A stretch of DNA of 35,136 nucleotides, from assembly GCA_024103215.1 (NCBI GenBank), contig JAGFIY010000114.1, positions 1 to 35,136 of the forward strand, given 5' to 3'. This DNA is from Melioribacteraceae bacterium. Its GTDB lineage: Bacteria; Bacteroidota; Ignavibacteria; Ignavibacteriales; Melioribacteraceae. Position 1 is the stretch's first letter. Each line of letters starts with the position of its first letter. Made by a program: the position numbers and the translations under genes. Below the pieces are notes generated by a model, which did not search any database, was not told where the DNA came from, and saw nothing but the letters and a program-made list of their open reading frames with translations. Of this stretch, positions 4,742 to 25,074 are shown piece after piece.

Positions 4742-5890
4742 ATGTTGACAAATACAGAATTAAATTCACTTGTTCGATTAAGAAAAGAAATTCATAGAAC
4801 TCCCGAACTTGCACATAACGAGATACAAACTGCAAAAAGATTATTAGAATATTTAAAAAGTAAATCAGATCATGTAATAACAAATATCGGTGGTAACGGA
4901 ATCGCGTTTATTTTCGACAGCGGTAAACCGGGGGCAACAATATTATTTAGATCGGAACTCGATGCTCTGCCTATTATGGAAACCAATGTTTTTAAACATG
5001 CTTCTGTTTATAAAAACGTCTCACATAAATGCGGTCATGATGGTCATATGACCGTTCTCGCCGGATTAGGATTAATTTTATCAAAAGAAAAACTGAATTC
5101 CGGTAAAATTGTTTTACTTTATCAACCTGCCGAAGAAACTGGTGAAGGCGCAGAATTAGTTTTAAATGATGAAAATTTTTTAAAATTACAGCCTGATTTC
5201 ATTTTTGCTCTTCATAATCTGCCGGGATTTCCGCTTGGTAAAATTATAATCAAAAACGAACACTTTGCTGCAGCTTCAAAGGGAATGATAATCAAGTTGG
5301 AAGGAAAAACAAGTCATGCGGCGGAACCTGAAAACGGAATTTCACCGACAAATGGAATGATTAAAATTATTGATATGATACAAAAATTGGTTTCAACAAG
5401 TGAACTTAAAGACTTTGCACTTATTACCATAATACATGCAAAACTTGGGGAACGCGCTTTCGGAACGTCACCGGGTTCGGCTGAGATAATGTGTACACTT
5501 AGGAGTTTCAGAAATGACGATATGGAAATTTTGACAAATGCCGCAGTTGAGACCGCTAAAAAAATTGCCGTATTAGAGTATCTTAAAATCAATATTAAAT
5601 TCACTGAAGTTTTTCCAGCTACTATAAACGATCCGGAATGTACAGGTATTGTAAAAAAAGCATGCGAAAAACTTAATCTGGAATACGAGATGATAAATGC
5701 GCCATTCAAATGGTCGGAGGATTTCGGTCATTTTACTGATAAGATTAATGGTGCTTTGTTTGGAATCGGAGCAGGGGAGAATACCCCTTCCCTTCACAAT
5801 CCAAATTATGATTTTCCTGATGAACTTATCGAAACGGGAAGTAAATTGTTTTATCAAATTGTAAAAGAAATTACGGGAAGTAATGTTTAA
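4742..5890 (+). CDS. M20D-family amidohydrolase (N-acyl amino acid / IAA-amino acid hydrolase type)
   Basis: This is a 382-residue metallo-amidohydrolase of the M20D group, which cleaves amide bonds of N-acyl or conjugated amino acids. The metal-site signature CGHDGH is at residues 97-102, with Cys97 and His99 as expected ligands. LYQPAEETGEGA follows at 127-137 and carries the catalytic and metal-binding glutamates 131-132. His158 (ALHN) and His192 (SHAAEPENG, in the dimerisation domain) are present, and LHNPNYDFPDE near the C-terminus holds the last ligand. There is no signal peptide, so it is cytoplasmic. Its 3' end overlaps alr by 8 nt, implying co-transcription and possibly coupled translation. 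The pairing with alanine racemase hints at D/L-amino acid or wall-peptide metabolism, but the substrate is not fixed by sequence. Confidence 0.88.
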   Translation: MLTNTELNSLVRLRKEIHRTPELAHNEIQTAKRLLEYLKSKSDHVITNIGGNGIAFIFDSGKPGATILFRSELDALPIMETNVFKHASVYKNVSHKCGHDGHMTVLAGLGLILSKEKLNSGKIVLLYQPAEETGEGAELVLNDENFLKLQPDFIFALHNLPGFPLGKIIIKNEHFAAASKGMIIKLEGKTSHAAEPENGISPTNGMIKIIDMIQKLVSTSELKDFALITIIHAKLGERAFGTSPGSAEIMCTLRSFRNDDMEILTNAAVETAKKIAVLEYLKINIKFTEVFPATINDPECTGIVKKACEKLNLEYEMINAPFKWSEDFGHFTDKINGALFGIGAGENTPSLHNPNYDFPDELIETGSKLFYQIVKEITGSNV

Positions 5891-10893: not shown

Positions 10894-11349
10894 TTAACCG
10901 TTCGTAGTTTCATTGTAAATGGTAATCCATTTCCCGATACGGTCATCCCAGTACTTAACTTGTTTTCTGAGTTTTCCTTTATTTGTATATTGATGAAATC
11001 CGATCATTCTTACCGTATTGCCATTGCCGTCAGCGGCATACGAATGAATTTGGATCTGAACCTTGTTTTTATTTGCCGTAATCTGTTTGGGTTTGATATA
11101 GCCGAGACCATCGATCTTCATCAACTGACGCGAAGGCTTCCATCCTTTGAAAGATTGCCCTCCTCCACCTAAATCTGTCGGAGTTTTGTAATAAACTTCA
11201 GCATTTTCAAGAAGATGATTCGTCATATTCAACATTTCATCAATTCTTGCTTGATCACTGAAAGATCGGAAAAGATCCGTTCCCGAAGAAATTGCAAGGC
11301 CCACGATTATTATACCAAGTGCAATCAATAAAAGTTGTTTTGTACCCAT
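10894..11349 (-). CDS. Pilin-like small membrane protein
   Basis: This is a 151-residue protein with one N-terminal hydrophobic helix, MGTKQLLLIALGIIIVGLAI, followed by an amphipathic helix (about 25-54, RSFSDQARIDEMLNMTNHLLENAEVYY) and a soluble, beta-looking C-terminal part. This layout, an N-terminal helix that continues into an alpha spine and then a small globular head, resembles type IV pilin-like proteins. I see no cleavage motif with G|FxxxE, so it could equally be a membrane-anchored protein. A Gly-rich loop, LGGGGQSFKGW, follows the spine. ATG 11349 has AGGA 8 nt upstream. It lies 8 nt downstream of the sigma/FecR-like fusion gene in the same orientation, so the two are probably co-transcribed. 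I do not recognise a named family. Confidence 0.7.
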   Translation of the reverse strand: MGTKQLLLIALGIIIVGLAISSGTDLFRSFSDQARIDEMLNMTNHLLENAEVYYKTPTDLGGGGQSFKGWKPSRQLMKIDGLGYIKPKQITANKNKVQIQIHSYAADGNGNTVRMIGFHQYTNKGKLRKQVKYWDDRIGKWITIYNETTNG

Positions 11350-11357
11350 TTTATTTC

Positions 11358-13061
11358 CTATTCAATCATGAATGAATCGGAAAGCGCTTTAACAGATTCA
11401 ACAAGAAATTCGTACGCTGCTTTATCGTTCTGAAGAATTTTATTTTCAATATTATTATCGATAAAAGGAACAAATTCTTTAATCTTGTTCAAAGCTGTTC
11501 TTTTTTGTTCTTGATCTAAATAAACAAATGCTGAAAGAAGCGTAAAAATATCATTCTCTCTTAGATTCGGAATTATAAAGTCTGCATTTGCCTTAAACGT
11601 CTGCGAATTTTTAACTAAAGATTTTAGTTCCTCTGTCAAGTCATCTCTCATCGGCAGATCATAAAGCGATGTATAAATAAATTTATATCCCGAGCCGATA
11701 AAAATGCGTACATCATTCGAGAGTTCAATCGTTGCAACACCAGAAATTCCCTCAACTGCTTTTTCTGATATGTTAATATTAAAAGCTGATCCATGCTCAG
11801 CAATTATATTTCCAAACTCTGTTATAATAGTCAAATTGTATTCCGGATCTAGCTTTGTATTTGGTTTTGTTTTCGATTCATATCTAAGCGAACCAGATTT
11901 AAGGTTAATTTTTGGCGTAACTTTCGAATCATCAAGCAATACAAATTCAGTTTCTTCGTCGACGGCAATCTCAGCAATTCCGGGAATTCCAATTACCACT
12001 GAAGAAAACCGTTTGGTATGGAAAACATCATCTTGTGATATCTCTCTAATTCCCTGCTCGGAATTTATTGTATATGCACCAAAATTTGTTTTTACATCCC
12101 AACTAACTGAAGGTGTATGAAAAAAAAGAAAGTAAACTACTATTACAGCCAACAAAAGAAGAACAGATGAAAACTTTAATATCGATAGCAGTAATTGAAT
12201 TTTGTCAGTCTTCGTCTTTTCCTTTTCTTCAAGGTTTTTGAACGTATTTCCAAGAACCTTTGAAACATCGGTACTTTTTATGAGTTTATCAGTCTGTGCT
12301 TTTCTTTTTGCTTTCTCAGCAGGTTTTGGGTCAATCGCCTGCATTAAAAATTCTGTAACACCTTTTATTATCTCTGAGCTTACATCAACATTAGTGTAAA
12401 GGTTTTTTATATCCGCAATCATTTTGAAAAAAACCTGCTGCTCACCCATATCCGGGTCTTGTTCCTTGACTGAAATATCTTTATTACTGAATAGATACTC
12501 GTAAATTTTATCACGCTCATATTGAAAAACATGATCCGGATTCGAAAGATTATAGAGCTGATTTAAAGTATCGCATATTAGAAATCTTATATCCTCGATA
12601 CTTTTTTTCGGCATTAAATTTGCGATTGATTCGATTTCGTAATTTAGTTTGAGATATAGTATCAAAACTATTCTGCTAATGTCATCAATTTGTGGAAACG
12701 ATTTTTCAAGACTTGAGAACTTATCGAGTTCCTCTTCCTTAAATGTAGCTTTAAGGTTAGATTCCCCGTTATTATCCTTCTCACCATTACCTAGTTTGAT
12801 TTTATTAAACGAGTTAACAATCACCAAACTCTTAATCCATTCCTGATAAGTCATTTCATCAGGAAGGGCCGAGAGATTTTTGTAAGTGAAGGTGAAAATT
12901 TCTATTGTAGTTTCAAGCGCTTTCTGCTTATCGGCTAAAAGAAGATATGCTATCTGAAAAATTTCTTTATGTACGAAGCCAACTAATTCAAGAAAAGCGT
13001 TTCTATGTCCACGTGATGCGTTTAGGACCAAATAATTTATATAATCGCCCTGCTTCGCCAA
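11358..13061 (-). CDS. Membrane-spanning fusion of a sigma-70-like N-terminus and a FecR-like C-terminus
   Basis: This 567-residue protein has three parts. Residues 8-90 resemble sigma-70 region 2 of ECF factors, with NAFLELV...HKEIFQIAYLLL and EWIKSLVIVNSFNKI. Residues 125-172 resemble region 4, with SRIVLILYLKLNYEIESIA. The usual acidic Ae-D motif of region 2 is lost (reads KALETT) and the region-4 recognition helix is poor. A charged linker (about 175-288) leads to one membrane helix at 289-314. Residues 321-462 resemble FecR: an inward beta-rich section with VVIGIPGIAEIAVDEETE, LKSGSLRYES and LTIITEFGNIIAEHGSAFNI. A helical tail follows (about 475-567). The start is TTG at 13061. GAGGA at 13066-13070 supports it, and no in-frame ATG lies between it and the upstream stop. 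A pilin-like gene follows 8 nt downstream. The fold calls come from pattern recognition; the function is unknown. Confidence 0.75.
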   Translation of the reverse strand: MAKQGDYINYLVLNASRGHRNAFLELVGFVHKEIFQIAYLLLADKQKALETTIEIFTFTYKNLSALPDEMTYQEWIKSLVIVNSFNKIKLGNGEKDNNGESNLKATFKEEELDKFSSLEKSFPQIDDISRIVLILYLKLNYEIESIANLMPKKSIEDIRFLICDTLNQLYNLSNPDHVFQYERDKIYEYLFSNKDISVKEQDPDMGEQQVFFKMIADIKNLYTNVDVSSEIIKGVTEFLMQAIDPKPAEKAKRKAQTDKLIKSTDVSKVLGNTFKNLEEKEKTKTDKIQLLLSILKFSSVLLLLAVIVVYFLFFHTPSVSWDVKTNFGAYTINSEQGIREISQDDVFHTKRFSSVVIGIPGIAEIAVDEETEFVLLDDSKVTPKINLKSGSLRYESKTKPNTKLDPEYNLTIITEFGNIIAEHGSAFNINISEKAVEGISGVATIELSNDVRIFIGSGYKFIYTSLYDLPMRDDLTEELKSLVKNSQTFKANADFIIPNLRENDIFTLLSAFVYLDQEQKRTALNKIKEFVPFIDNNIENKILQNDKAAYEFLVESVKALSDSFMIE

Positions 13062-13065
13062 AAAT

Positions 13066-13070
13066 TCCTC
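13066..13070 (-). promoter_or_regulatory. Shine-Dalgarno supporting a TTG start
   Basis: GAGGA on the minus strand lies 4 nt before TTG 13061. It is the only ribosome-site-like sequence in the open frame here, and no ATG is available upstream of residue 70 of this protein. Confidence 0.5.
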
Positions 13071-13249: not shown

Positions 13250-13339
13250 TGGCGGAGAGAGTGGGATTCGAACCCACGATACCCGTGAAGGTATACCCGC
13301 TTTCCAGGCGAGCCAGTTCAGCCACTCCTGCATCTCTCC
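13250..13339 (-). tRNA. tRNA-Ser (anticodon GGA)
   Basis: Read on the minus strand, GGAGAGA (13333-13339) pairs with TCTCTCC (13254-13260) as the acceptor stem. The anticodon loop is CTGGAAA, giving GGA, which reads UCC/UCU serine codons. The long variable arm (GGTATACC...GGGTATC) is typical of tRNA-Ser. The T-loop GGTTCGAATCC is canonical. The discriminator base is G, as expected for Ser, and CCA is encoded (13250-13252). It diverges from the second tRNA-Ser. Confidence 0.95.
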
Positions 13340-13436: not shown

Positions 13437-13525
13437 GGAAGGGTGCCGGAGTGGTTGAACGGGGCGGTCTCGAAAACCGTTGATCCCTTTTTTGGGATCC
13501 GAGGGTTCGAATCCCTCCCCTTCCG
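13437..13525 (+). tRNA. tRNA-Ser (anticodon CGA)
   Basis: GGAAGGG (13437-13443) pairs with CCCTTCC (13518-13524). The anticodon loop CTCGAAA gives CGA, reading UCG serine codons. The variable arm is long and self-complementary (GATCCC...GGGATC), typical of tRNA-Ser. The T-loop is GGTTCGAATCC and the discriminator G. CCA is not encoded (the gene is followed by CAA), so it must be added by CCA transferase, unlike the neighbouring tRNA-Ser. Confidence 0.95.
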
Positions 13526-13848
13526 CAAATTTTCAAAAAAGATAATTTCTACTCTGATCCTTTTTAGATCTACCCGCATCTAATAATTGTGTTTTGTGAA
13601 CTTGAATCAAGTAATAACATCAAGTTTAGCAAAACAACTAAAGAAATATTCTATCTATTCGATTATAGTTGTAGGGAAAACCACGAATTATTCGAATAAA
13701 TTTTTATTTACTTTCCCTTCGACCATATTATAATTTTTAAAGTCTATTGTACTTTAACCAATAAGTGGTAGGGAATAATTTGTTTTAATAAATTTATTAG
13801 AGAATTTTATCATATTTTCTTTATTCCTTTTTTTTGAAAAGAAAAAAC
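13526..13848. other. 323-base noncoding spacer with a small palindrome
   Basis: The spacer lies between tRNA-Ser(CGA) and the first histidine kinase. ACTTGAATCAAGT at 13600-13612 is a perfect odd-length palindrome, and its ATCAAGT half recurs at 13619-13625. GTAGGGAA occurs at 13671-13678 and again at 13768-13775. I see no ORF, RNA gene or two-box promoter; the repeats could be operator sites. Confidence 0.35.
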
Positions 13849-17921: not shown

Positions 17922-18362
17922 ATGAAAATAAATTTCCCTTTTTTGATAATACTTATTGCTTTGCTTAACCTTCCGCTTTTTCCGCAGAACCCTGGTGAAA
18001 TTTGGGTAAGCACGGACAAAACTTATGGAGGCGGACTTTTTATTGACGTTTACGGTCTTAACAGTTTTAAGGGTGATGATTTTTATGTTTGGTCGCTTCA
18101 AGATGCTGTTCCACCTCTTGAAATGGAAGGAATAGATAAAGAAGTTCACAAAATTAAGACGTATTACCTCATAAATAGAGAATTGAAAAAATACAGTATT
18201 CTTGAAATGGTATTCTTTGATGAAAATGATAACGTTGTTAAGAGTTTTAATTACAAAGTTGACACTCAGATTCTTGCATATAAATACAGCTATCCAATTT
18301 ACCCGAACAGCGATGCTGATTTTATTCTAAAAAAATCGTTGGAATATCTTGGCTCGAAATAA
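17922..18362 (+). CDS. Secreted protein of unknown function
   Basis: This 146-residue protein starts with MKINFPFLIILIALLNLPLF, a signal peptide likely cut near PQN at about residue 22. The mature part is about 120 residues, probably beta-rich, with YGGGLFIDVYGL and FYVWSLQDAVPPLEMEG. No cysteine is present, so it is not a lipoprotein. I recognise no family or catalytic motif and assign no function. Its last 14 nt overlap the TTG start of the SET gene, so the two are probably co-transcribed, even though one product is exported and the other is cytoplasmic. Confidence 0.7.
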   Translation: MKINFPFLIILIALLNLPLFPQNPGEIWVSTDKTYGGGLFIDVYGLNSFKGDDFYVWSLQDAVPPLEMEGIDKEVHKIKTYYLINRELKKYSILEMVFFDENDNVVKSFNYKVDTQILAYKYSYPIYPNSDADFILKKSLEYLGSK

Positions 18363-18783
18363 ATCGCAAAAGTACTCCACAAGTTGGGAAAAACACATCT
18401 ATGTAAAAGATTCATCCATTCATGGAAAGGGAATCTTTTCCTCTGTTAAAATACCGGAGGATTCGTTGGTAATGGTGATCAAAGGCGAAGTTATAGATGG
18501 TTTTGAATGTGAAAGACGCGAAGAGGAAGAAAACAACGTTTATATTTTTTGGAACGGCGATTATTATATCGATACGTTTAAAACGGAAAAGATTAAATAT
18601 ATAAATCATGACTGTGACCCCAACTGTATAGTTCTAGACAGAGATGATAAATCACTAAACTTAGTTTCATTAAGAGTTATTGAACCGGGCGAAGAAATAA
18701 CAATGGATTACGGTTACGAAGAAATTTATGAAAATTGCAGTTGCAGAACTTGCGCAGCCAAAGCTAAAGTTGTTTTAGAATAG
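18349..18783 (+). CDS. SET-domain protein (putative lysine methyltransferase)
   Basis: This is a 144-residue stand-alone SET domain, the protein lysine methyltransferase fold common in eukaryotes and scattered in bacteria. The SET motifs are in order: HGKGIF (25-30) in the S-adenosylmethionine site, NHDCDPNC (86-93) and GEEITMDYGY (114-123), whose Tyr121 is the expected catalytic residue. A post-SET-like zinc cluster is visible: Cys93 and the C-x-C-x-x-C at 130-135. The start is TTG 18349, 14 nt inside the upstream secreted-protein gene. No ATG precedes the conserved GKGIF, so a TTG start is required. The last 20 nt overlap mtgA, which converges. The methylation target is unknown. Family call is firm from motifs. 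Confidence 0.85.
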   Translation: MARNKSQKYSTSWEKHIYVKDSSIHGKGIFSSVKIPEDSLVMVIKGEVIDGFECERREEEENNVYIFWNGDYYIDTFKTEKIKYINHDCDPNCIVLDRDDKSLNLVSLRVIEPGEEITMDYGYEEIYENCSCRTCAAKAKVVLE

Positions 18784-22890: not shown

Positions 22891-25074
22891 ATGAGAGAAG
22901 AAAAGCCGCATTCATCAATTTCTGAGATCGAGAAACCTCATCCAGATAGAAAAACCGAGTGGTGGTTTTTCCAAGGATATTTTCAAGAGCACACCGAAAC
23001 AAAATTCTATTTCATGCTTAGCTTTTTCAGAATCAAATTTCCGGCTTATGTAGAAAATAATTCTGAGGGTTATTCGCTTCTCTTTTCAATTCTTAATGCT
23101 GAGACGAAAGAGAGTAAGTACTACAGTTTGATTGATCAAAGTGCACTAGACGGACTATTAAAAGCTTTTAAGACCGAGAAGGAATTAGATTTCGACCAGG
23201 ATTTGATAGATGTATTAGTAAAAGAAATTGGTTACCACGGACCGCCACTGCCAATAAAACTAAAGGAAGTAAAATTTAATTCAAATGAAGAATTTCTGAA
23301 AATTGACTGGAAGGATTTTCAACTTTATCATACAGAAAATAGATTCGAAATTATTTTTCCCCATTTGAAGGAAGATTCTCCATGTAAAATCACTATTCTT
23401 ACTGAAAAGAAAAAATATTCACTAATAGAATATCAAAAGTCTTTCGACCCGCAAATAGGTTATAGTTGTTATCCGAATGTAAATTTTATGGGACAATCCG
23501 GCGAAAACAATATTACAGGTGAAGTGTGGATGGATCATCAATGGGGCGGTTACGGATGGGTTGTTGACGAGGATAAAGAAAAGAAAATATTGGGCTGGGA
23601 TTGGTTTGGAATTAATCTCGATAACGGAATGAACTTAATAGTGCTTGCACATAAATATGTAAAAACTAATGAAGTTTTTTATTTGGCTGCTTCTTTAATG
23701 ATCCCAGGCGAGCAGAGTAGAACTTATAAGAATGTAAAACTTACTCCGCTAGAAAATTGGGAAAGTCCTGTAACACATATTGAGTATTCGATCTCATGGA
23801 AGATTGAGGTAAATGAGCTTAACTTGAACCTGATATTCACACCGATAATTGAAGATCAAGAGCTGCAGATATTCGGAATTGCAAGAGCAGTTTGGGAAGG
23901 AGTCGGATTTGTTGAGGGGACATATAAGGGCAAGTCAATTAGCGGAAGAGCAAGAGGAGAGTTTTTCGGAAACGGATACATTTTTGATTTTCAAAATTAC
24001 CTTCAGCGTTTAGCAGATCGAGTGGATAAACGAATTGAAGAATTTCTCCCGAAAAATTTTGACGAAGATAGAATAGAATATTTTTTAGGCAAGCCATATT
24101 GGCAAAACGAGCCTAAAGCATACACCGAACTAATTTCTGTTCCAGTCTGGGATTTGATTTTAAGACGCGGTAAGAGATGGAGACCAATTTATGGACTTCT
24201 AATGCACGAAGCTCTCGGAAAACCCAGCGGGAATTATGAAAGATCATGCTGCCTAGCTGAATTGATCCACAGCGGAGCCTTGATAATCGATGACATTGAA
24301 GACAACTCAATTTTAAGGCGTGGTGACAAAGCACTCCATCTTAAATATGGATTGGATGTCGCACTTAATGCAGGAAACATGCTTTATTTTCTTCCTTCTG
24401 CAGAGCTTTTTAACCACGAACATCTCACCGAAATGCAGAAACTACACATTCATGAAATAATGATGAAAACTTATTTGGAAGCCCATTTCGGACAAACCCT
24501 TGATATTTACTGGTCAAAAAACATGTCTAAAGAAAATATTGACCTCTGGCTGGATGATAATATCGAAAGTAAAATTCTGCAAATGTACGATTATAAAACT
24601 GCAGCTGGACCAAAAGGTTTGGCTGAAATTGCTGCGCTGCTGAACGATTCAAGTGACGAAATAAAAAAAGCAGCAATCGATTTTTCAAGAGCATTTGCTG
24701 TCGCATTTCAAATAATTGATGACGTTCATAATTTCAGTAATTCATCAAAGTGGACAAAAGAATGCGGCGAAGATATTAAAAACGGAAAGCTGACATTTGT
24801 GATTGCTAAGACACTAAAATTCTTTGAAGAAAAAGAGCAAAACAGATTCAAAGATATTTTATGCGACATTAAACTTAGAAATGACAATGATTCGCTTTCG
24901 GAAGCAATAGAATTAGTAAGAAAATCGGGTGTGCTCGAAGAGAGCAAAGATTATGCAAAACAATTAAGCCTCGAAGCTTGGGATAGATTTTCAGAAATCG
25001 TCCCAAGCTGCGAAGCTAAAATAATGCTGAACTTGCTATGCCTTAAAATGTTGGATCTAGCTTACGACACTTAA
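22891..25074 (+). CDS. Fusion of a CrtC/AttH-like lipocalin domain with a polyprenyl diphosphate synthase
   Basis: This 727-residue protein has no signal peptide. Residues about 15-365 resemble the two-lobed CrtC/AttH-type lipocalin domain of carotenoid 1,2-hydratases, with TEWWFFQGYF (22-31), GEVWMDHQWGGYGW (210-223) and GWDWFGINLDNGMNLI (235-250). Residues about 375-727 form an all-alpha isoprenyl diphosphate synthase. Its motifs are RRGKRWRPIYG (425-435), the first Asp motif DDIED at 467-471 followed by RRG, and the second one, DDVHN, at 610-614, where the usual third Asp is Asn, then GEDIKNGKLTF (626-636). Such synthases chain-elongate IPP with allylic diphosphates. The fusion suggests that a prenyl chain made in one half is hydrated or otherwise processed in the other, which is inference. 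ATG 22891 starts the first domain directly. The 3' end stops 3 nt from the converging T9SS protein gene. Confidence 0.85.
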   Translation: MREEKPHSSISEIEKPHPDRKTEWWFFQGYFQEHTETKFYFMLSFFRIKFPAYVENNSEGYSLLFSILNAETKESKYYSLIDQSALDGLLKAFKTEKELDFDQDLIDVLVKEIGYHGPPLPIKLKEVKFNSNEEFLKIDWKDFQLYHTENRFEIIFPHLKEDSPCKITILTEKKKYSLIEYQKSFDPQIGYSCYPNVNFMGQSGENNITGEVWMDHQWGGYGWVVDEDKEKKILGWDWFGINLDNGMNLIVLAHKYVKTNEVFYLAASLMIPGEQSRTYKNVKLTPLENWESPVTHIEYSISWKIEVNELNLNLIFTPIIEDQELQIFGIARAVWEGVGFVEGTYKGKSISGRARGEFFGNGYIFDFQNYLQRLADRVDKRIEEFLPKNFDEDRIEYFLGKPYWQNEPKAYTELISVPVWDLILRRGKRWRPIYGLLMHEALGKPSGNYERSCCLAELIHSGALIIDDIEDNSILRRGDKALHLKYGLDVALNAGNMLYFLPSAELFNHEHLTEMQKLHIHEIMMKTYLEAHFGQTLDIYWSKNMSKENIDLWLDDNIESKILQMYDYKTAAGPKGLAEIAALLNDSSDEIKKAAIDFSRAFAVAFQIIDDVHNFSNSSKWTKECGEDIKNGKLTFVIAKTLKFFEEKEQNRFKDILCDIKLRNDNDSLSEAIELVRKSGVLEESKDYAKQLSLEAWDRFSEIVPSCEAKIMLNLLCLKMLDLAYDT

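Follow-up and report, generated by a model that had tools for sequence, protein, structure and literature searches.

A sigma factor is normally held in check by a membrane sensor that is made as a separate protein. This is the case for SigW and RsiW, a class I zinc anti-sigma, and to our knowledge RsiW has no FecR domain. The FecI-FecR pairs, which include LIC12757-LIC12756 of Leptospira (PMC12155086), likewise consist of two proteins, an ECF sigma and a FecR-type membrane regulator, with the iron systems of Gram-negative bacteria relying on a TonB transducer. Single-chain versions are nevertheless known. IutY of Pseudomonas putida, an ECF243 hybrid of sigma and anti-sigma, is released by the proteases Prc and RseP (PMC5411451, PMC8999054), and other sigma/anti-sigma fusions occur in ECF48, ECF52, ECF53 and some members of ECF36 (PMC8999054). 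In ECF48, ECF52 (SCO4117) and ECF53 of the Actinobacteria, the sigma is fused at its C-terminus to a zinc-finger anti-sigma and membrane helices, and release is presumed to be proteolytic (PMC8999054).

Here we analyze a gene for a protein of this kind in a 35,136-nucleotide stretch of DNA from a Melioribacteraceae bacterium (the window). An earlier note on this DNA had set the protein against the usual arrangement of separate sigma and anti-sigma proteins. The window protein is indeed a fusion, but its layout is already known from IutY (PMC5411451) and from ECF48, ECF52 and ECF53 (PMC8999054). Like IutY, it is one chain with an N-terminal ECF sigma, a single membrane helix and a periplasmic FecR-family anti-sigma domain. 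IutY, however, belongs to an aerobactin/TonB-receptor system, whereas no STN domain (PF07660, E 1e-3) was found in the window genome, the neighboring gene encodes a pilin, the tail of the protein is helical, and the DNA contacts of its sigma lineage, which is one of the Ignavibacteria, are eroded. The actinobacterial fusions come from another phylum, carry other periplasmic domains (for example, carbohydrate-binding ones) and have a described zinc-finger domain, whereas the window protein has a FecR-type domain and has lost the zinc motif. SigW provides the closest solved fold for its sigma half, and its split relatives carry an anti-sigma of the zf-HC2 class. The closest solved fold for its periplasmic beta domain is the C-terminal signaling domain of PupR (6ovk); in PupR that region partners the signaling domain of a siderophore receptor, whereas residues 474-567 of the window protein form a helical domain. 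Thus, what is new here is not the layout but the phylum, the pilin partner, the zinc-less anti-sigma segment, the helical tail, the family-wide loss of DNA-contact charge and the origin of the fusion. Among the papers searched, none dealt with ECF/anti-sigma systems of Ignavibacteria or with this kind of ECF linked to a pilin. We put the probability at roughly 0.6 for the reading in which this ECF sigma, tethered to the membrane as part of one chain with a FecR-type anti-sigma of its own, is freed by proteolysis in response to an envelope signal. The gene also links a FecR-type system to type IV pilins instead of iron uptake.

Domain anatomy of the fused protein

The gene is one uninterrupted frame (13061-11358, minus strand) that begins with TTG and encodes 567 amino acids. 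Pfam returned neither a sigma nor a FecR match on the window protein, so its identity was derived by way of its relatives, most of which have the sigma and the anti-sigma in two separate genes (the split form). The features assigned are listed below with the evidence for each.

13067..13070, minus strand: Shine-Dalgarno-like GAGG, seen in the sequence 5 nt ahead of the TTG start
12762..13061, minus strand: sigma region 2, residues 1-100, predicted cytoplasmic (NCBIfam ECF models, split-sigma profile, AlphaFold model)
12546..12740, minus strand: sigma region 4, residues 108-172, with a degenerate recognition helix (split-sigma profile to residue 168, SigW alignment, net charge)
12210..12545, minus strand: putative remnant of an anti-sigma domain, with linker, residues 173-284; the zinc motif is gone (same position as zf-HC2 of split partners, profile scores in fused relatives)
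12120..12203, minus strand: single transmembrane helix, residues 287-314 (hydropathy, AlphaFold helix at 282-314, lysine-rich N flank)
11643..12104, minus strand: FecR-type periplasmic beta domain, residues 320-473 (split-FecR profile, PupR structure match)
11361..11642, minus strand: C-terminal helical domain, residues 474-567 (alignment with split partners, AlphaFold helices)
10894..11349, minus strand: type IV pilin paralogue of 151 amino acids, beginning 8 nt past the stop of the fused gene on the same strand (family alignment)

In the sigma half, residues 11-152 are covered by NCBIfam ECF models (TIGR02954, E 5.8e-9; PRK09641, E 9.9e-8), the best curated matches being general ECF/SigW-like models. 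Residues 3-168 score 91.3 bits against a profile built only from the split sigmas of relatives, while the best of 2000 shuffles scores 9.8. Residues 1-172 contain regions 2 and 4 only, the two-domain ECF form that lacks regions 1.1 and 3. Two separate AlphaFold2 models were made, one of residues 1-285 (pLDDT 83) and one of residues 281-567 (pLDDT 86). The sigma-half model is closest to SigW in the SigW-RsiW crystal (5wuq; Z 13.5 over 158 residues, 3.7 A), with SigW residues 2-187 aligned to model residues 5-176, and its region 2 matches the E. coli sigmaE region 2 structures with Z of 12.5-12.9. By descent and by predicted fold, and leaving promoter binding aside, the N-terminal part of the window protein is classed as an ECF sigma.

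For the periplasmic half, residues 301-556 score 88.5 bits against a profile built only from split FecR partners (best of 2000 shuffles, 9.0). The corresponding model matches PupR over residues 342-473 (Z 13.1, 124 residues, 2.6 A) and BDI_1681 with a Z of 12. A fold search with the model found no convincing structural match for the tail, residues 474-567; in split relatives the tail ends ..FPPPxxVTRxGII..WWxEIEWQL. Profiles and predicted folds therefore agree with the earlier note, which had proposed a single chain joining a sigma-like N-terminal part and a FecR-like periplasmic domain through one membrane helix at residues 289-314, a position that hydropathy and the predicted helix support.

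That note had also proposed that the protein might be a regulator with no need of a separate anti-sigma. If this is taken to mean that no anti-sigma is present, it is probably wrong, since residues 173-284 sit where split relatives have their zf-HC2 domain. The segment is predicted by AlphaFold2 to contain helices at residues 183-191, 206-219, 228-243, 247-263 and 266-284, and it contains no Cys. An anti-sigma-domain profile scores 4.3 bits on the window protein, a collinear match at residues 207-242 that lies below significance. The same profile gives 33 bits on the fused relative L129, 25 on L128, 18-20 on L121, L123 and L125, and 17.6 on L031. The shared position and the significant scores in fused relatives thus point to descent of the segment from an anti-sigma domain. 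On this comparison, the window chain probably contains its own anti-sigma, in degenerate form, instead of doing without one, the origin of the segment being below significance (4.3 bits) in the window protein itself. Of 30 split proteins, 21 carry a zinc motif, H-x3-C-x2-C; among 27 fused proteins only one has it, and the window protein does not. The sole fused protein that still has it (HLLLCSYC, in L129:1480-3168) looks like an intermediate between the split form and the zinc-less fusion.

Several features of the surrounding DNA were also observed. Genes for tRNA-Ser(GGA) and tRNA-Ser(CGA) lie just upstream of the fused gene at 13250-13339 and 13437-13526 and are divergent, the GGA gene being 5' of the fused gene and in the same direction. 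Judged by eye, positions 18349-18783 encode a small SET-domain-like protein with post-SET cysteines, positions 22891-25074 a 727-amino-acid ORF in which a CrtC/AttH-like N-terminal region is followed by a polyprenyl synthase that has a DDIED motif, and positions 26286-32018 genes like those of an Mrp/Mnh multi-subunit antiporter operon.

Split operons and fused genes in related genomes

Relatives were sought in 294 genomes of the class; a first scan of genome contigs with the window protein alone as query gave no match. Most relatives, found in Melioribacteraceae and Ignavibacteriaceae, consist of two neighboring genes, a sigma followed by a zf-HC2/TM/FecR anti-sigma, which usually overlap by 4 bp. 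The ECF sigma has about 170 amino acids. Its partner has about 400, with one membrane helix, a FecR-type end and an N-terminus of the form MNCEEVKxxLHDYxDE..HLRxCxxC. Pfam finds Sigma70_r4_2 in 31 and Sigma70_r2 in 27 of 36 sigma-region rows, and among 26 split-partner rows it finds zf-HC2 in 23 and FecR (PF04773) in 17. The named relatives are Melioribacter and Stygiobacter species, and an isolate, Stygiobacter electus 09-Me, carries the split operon. At the level of homology, the window gene is shown to descend from this two-gene sigma / zf-HC2-TM-FecR operon, which is common in both families.

The fused layout recurs among these relatives, for which the earlier note had suggested a search. 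Full-length fused forms are present in 29 of the 164 genomes of the order (G371, in which the frame is broken, is left out of this count), including the single-contig assemblies G119 and G165. In a tree built on the sigma and FecR parts, the window protein lies on a long branch (1.94) in fused clade A (8 rows, support 99/94), together with G323, G215, G394 and four genomes of genus g17. Fused clade B, whose members frequently lie at an lpd/DUF255 locus, accounts for a large part of the other family. The window genome has a single copy of the module and no split copy; G323 and the g17 genomes retain a split copy as well, and a fused, more degenerate copy occurs together with a split copy in G323, G296, G294, G277, G218, G347, G387 and G388. 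Three or more transitions between the split and the fused state are required by the tree. One common origin for every fusion is borderline in AU tests (p 0.049 and 0.066), which makes multiple origins likely, and the fusion probably arose more than once. Forms without FecR, consisting of the sigma and the anti-sigma-like segment only, were seen at the same lpd/DUF255 locus (L059:4902-5639, L061:7603-8388, L068:6566-7315 and L069:7534-8088) and are a further reduction of the fused form. One bacterial order thus offers a series from a two-gene operon through a zinc-keeping fusion to zinc-less fusions, plus the FecR-less forms, and with such a natural series the effect of covalent linkage on anti-sigma control can be asked.

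The pilin neighbor and its family

The gene 8 nt downstream, described in the earlier note as pilin-like, turns out to be paralogous to the type IV pilins that the genome encodes. Pfam gives no match on this 151-amino-acid protein, and its family includes two tandem genes at the head of a PilC-PilB-PilT-PilM-like operon in the window genome, the Pil names having been assigned by eye from the sequences. This type IV pilus operon, with two tandem MGQQQLLLIVLGV.. pilins followed by PilC, PilB, PilT and a PilM-like gene, was seen at G000:C150 (L166:446-5937) and at L191 and L192. A type III leader with E5 was not found in the neighbor's family, in which only an M-G ahead of the helix is invariant. 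Prepilin peptidase (PF01478) was not found in 69 of 75 family genomes, including the single-contig G113 and G153, and no Peptidase_A24 gene was found in the window genome.

A search of relatives for the downstream gene, also suggested earlier, shows that pilin adjacency is conserved. At 35 of the 78 module loci, a gene of the pilin family occurs no more than 600 bp away; these comprise 24 of 44 loci with the split form, 11 of 31 with the fused form and none of 3 with the reduced form, and adjacency is found in seven of the eight clade A tree rows. Given that there are only about three such pilin-family genes per genome, adjacency at 35 of 78 loci is beyond chance. The pilin gene lies upstream of split operons and mostly downstream of fused genes. 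It may be a target of the regulator, as the earlier note suggested, a source of its signal, or both. In L137, upstream of position 5495, the pilin gene before a split sigma seems to be broken, with readable C-terminal codons and no full ORF called.

The sigma domain, its probable mode of action and alternatives

The recognition helix of the window protein has a net charge of -1, in keeping with an earlier description of it as poor in basic residues. The median net charge is +1 in split forms, 0 in fused clade B and -2 in fused clade A, compared with +5 in ordinary ECFs, the latter being 20 paralogues from same-family genomes, most of which look like orthologues of one gene and thus do not count as independent; for a further five ECFs the mean is +5.2. 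Throughout the whole family, split forms included, the recognition helix and region 2.4 are without most of their basic residues. In region 2.4, where an IARN/IAVN motif is usual, most members lack its N or have another residue in its place. Ordinary promoter binding is therefore doubtful. Since the split sigmas are eroded as well, the erosion of DNA contacts is common to split and fused forms and not specific to fusion. Similarly, the region 2 acidic pair, to whose absence the earlier note drew attention, varies family-wide (EE, EN, KK, LE) and does not mark the fusion.

The suggestion in the same note that the sigma part may have lost promoter binding is unsupported: when related fused proteins are compared two by two, the sigma is usually the domain with the highest conservation, with dN/dS of 0.03-0.24. 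Sigma and FecR identities are 99% and 92% in the G215/G149 pair (dN/dS 0.05), 81% and 51% in G277/G218 (dN/dS 0.09), and 64% and 44% in G296/G294 (dN/dS 0.16), where the middle segment is equally conserved (65%). The split paralogues of G277 and G218 behave alike (sigma 80%, partner 55%). Saturation of dS affects several pairs, as well as the comparison of the window protein with G323. The nearest fused relative of the window protein has 28% identity to it in the sigma part, and with dS saturated we infer selection on the window copy from other members of the clade rather than measure it. The strong purifying selection in related fusions argues that the sigma part of this family is no relic.

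Taking the anatomy together with the precedent of IutY, we regard a tethered sigma freed by regulated proteolysis as the best account. At rest, the part of the chain that follows region 4 would keep the sigma closed and bound to the membrane. Covalent linkage may make a zinc-stabilized, high-affinity anti-sigma fold dispensable, which would explain why nearly every fusion has lost the zinc motif. The periplasmic FecR domain and helical tail would sense an envelope signal, and this signal may be the state of inner-membrane type IV pilins. No STN transducer was found in the genome, so the TonB route of the FecR and IutY systems does not apply. The signal would trigger stepwise proteolysis, ending with a site-2 protease, and Peptidase_M50 genes, of the site-2 protease family, are present in the window genome. 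The freed N-terminal sigma would then direct RNA polymerase to a small set of envelope or pilus genes.

Another explanation, which we consider rather unlikely but worth serious attention, is that the sigma-like domain has passed beyond promoter recognition and acts through protein contact, for example by binding or titrating an anti-sigma or RNA polymerase itself, while still under membrane control. The sigma-like domain of PhyR, which binds NepR, is a model for such behavior, and PhyR-NepR structures are among the fold matches of the sigma half, with Z of 7-8; ordinary ECFs, however, fit the fold better (Z 13.5). The recognition-helix charges of clade A, clade B and split forms relative to ordinary ECF paralogues and the missing or replaced N in region 2.4 are consistent with it, but charge loss by itself is no proof of lost DNA binding, and the Pfam Sigma70_r2/r4 models continue to match split members and a part of clade B. 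The eight genomes in which a more degenerate fused copy coexists with a split copy would suit this explanation, whereas in the window genome there is no split copy that the fused protein could regulate. A broader and more speculative idea, which we rate as doubtful, is that these proteins form a pilin-coupled Ignavibacteria signaling family in which an ECF-derived sigma domain without conventional promoter recognition, under strong selection and repeatedly fused to its anti-sigma, might report the state of the membrane type IV pilin pool.

It is improbable that the sigma works at the membrane without being released, with the FecR domain shifting its conformation. The degenerate anti-sigma segment and the disappearance of the zinc motif from nearly all fusions would be compatible with such an arrangement, but IutY, the only experimentally characterized protein of this layout, is released by proteolysis (PMC5411451, PMC8999054), and members of the site-2 protease family are present. 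That the gene is a decaying relic of a sigma/anti-sigma operon seems very improbable; the long window branch and the absent Pfam sigma match might suggest it, but the 567-codon ORF is uninterrupted, the sigma domain of related fusions is under strong purifying selection, and the fusion recurs widely. A sequencing or assembly error that merged two genes, conceivable in a draft assembly of 186 contigs, was rejected as next to impossible, the fusion being repeated in 29 genomes, two of them single-contig assemblies.

Inspection by eye of the upstream regions of about 48 operons revealed no obvious common ECF-type promoter. A TTGAAG-N17-TATCAT-like box is common to several Melioribacter operons, where it lies upstream of pilin or sigma genes (L138, L144, L147, L151-L153 and L158). 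These boxes resemble housekeeping promoters and are possibly the promoters of the operons.
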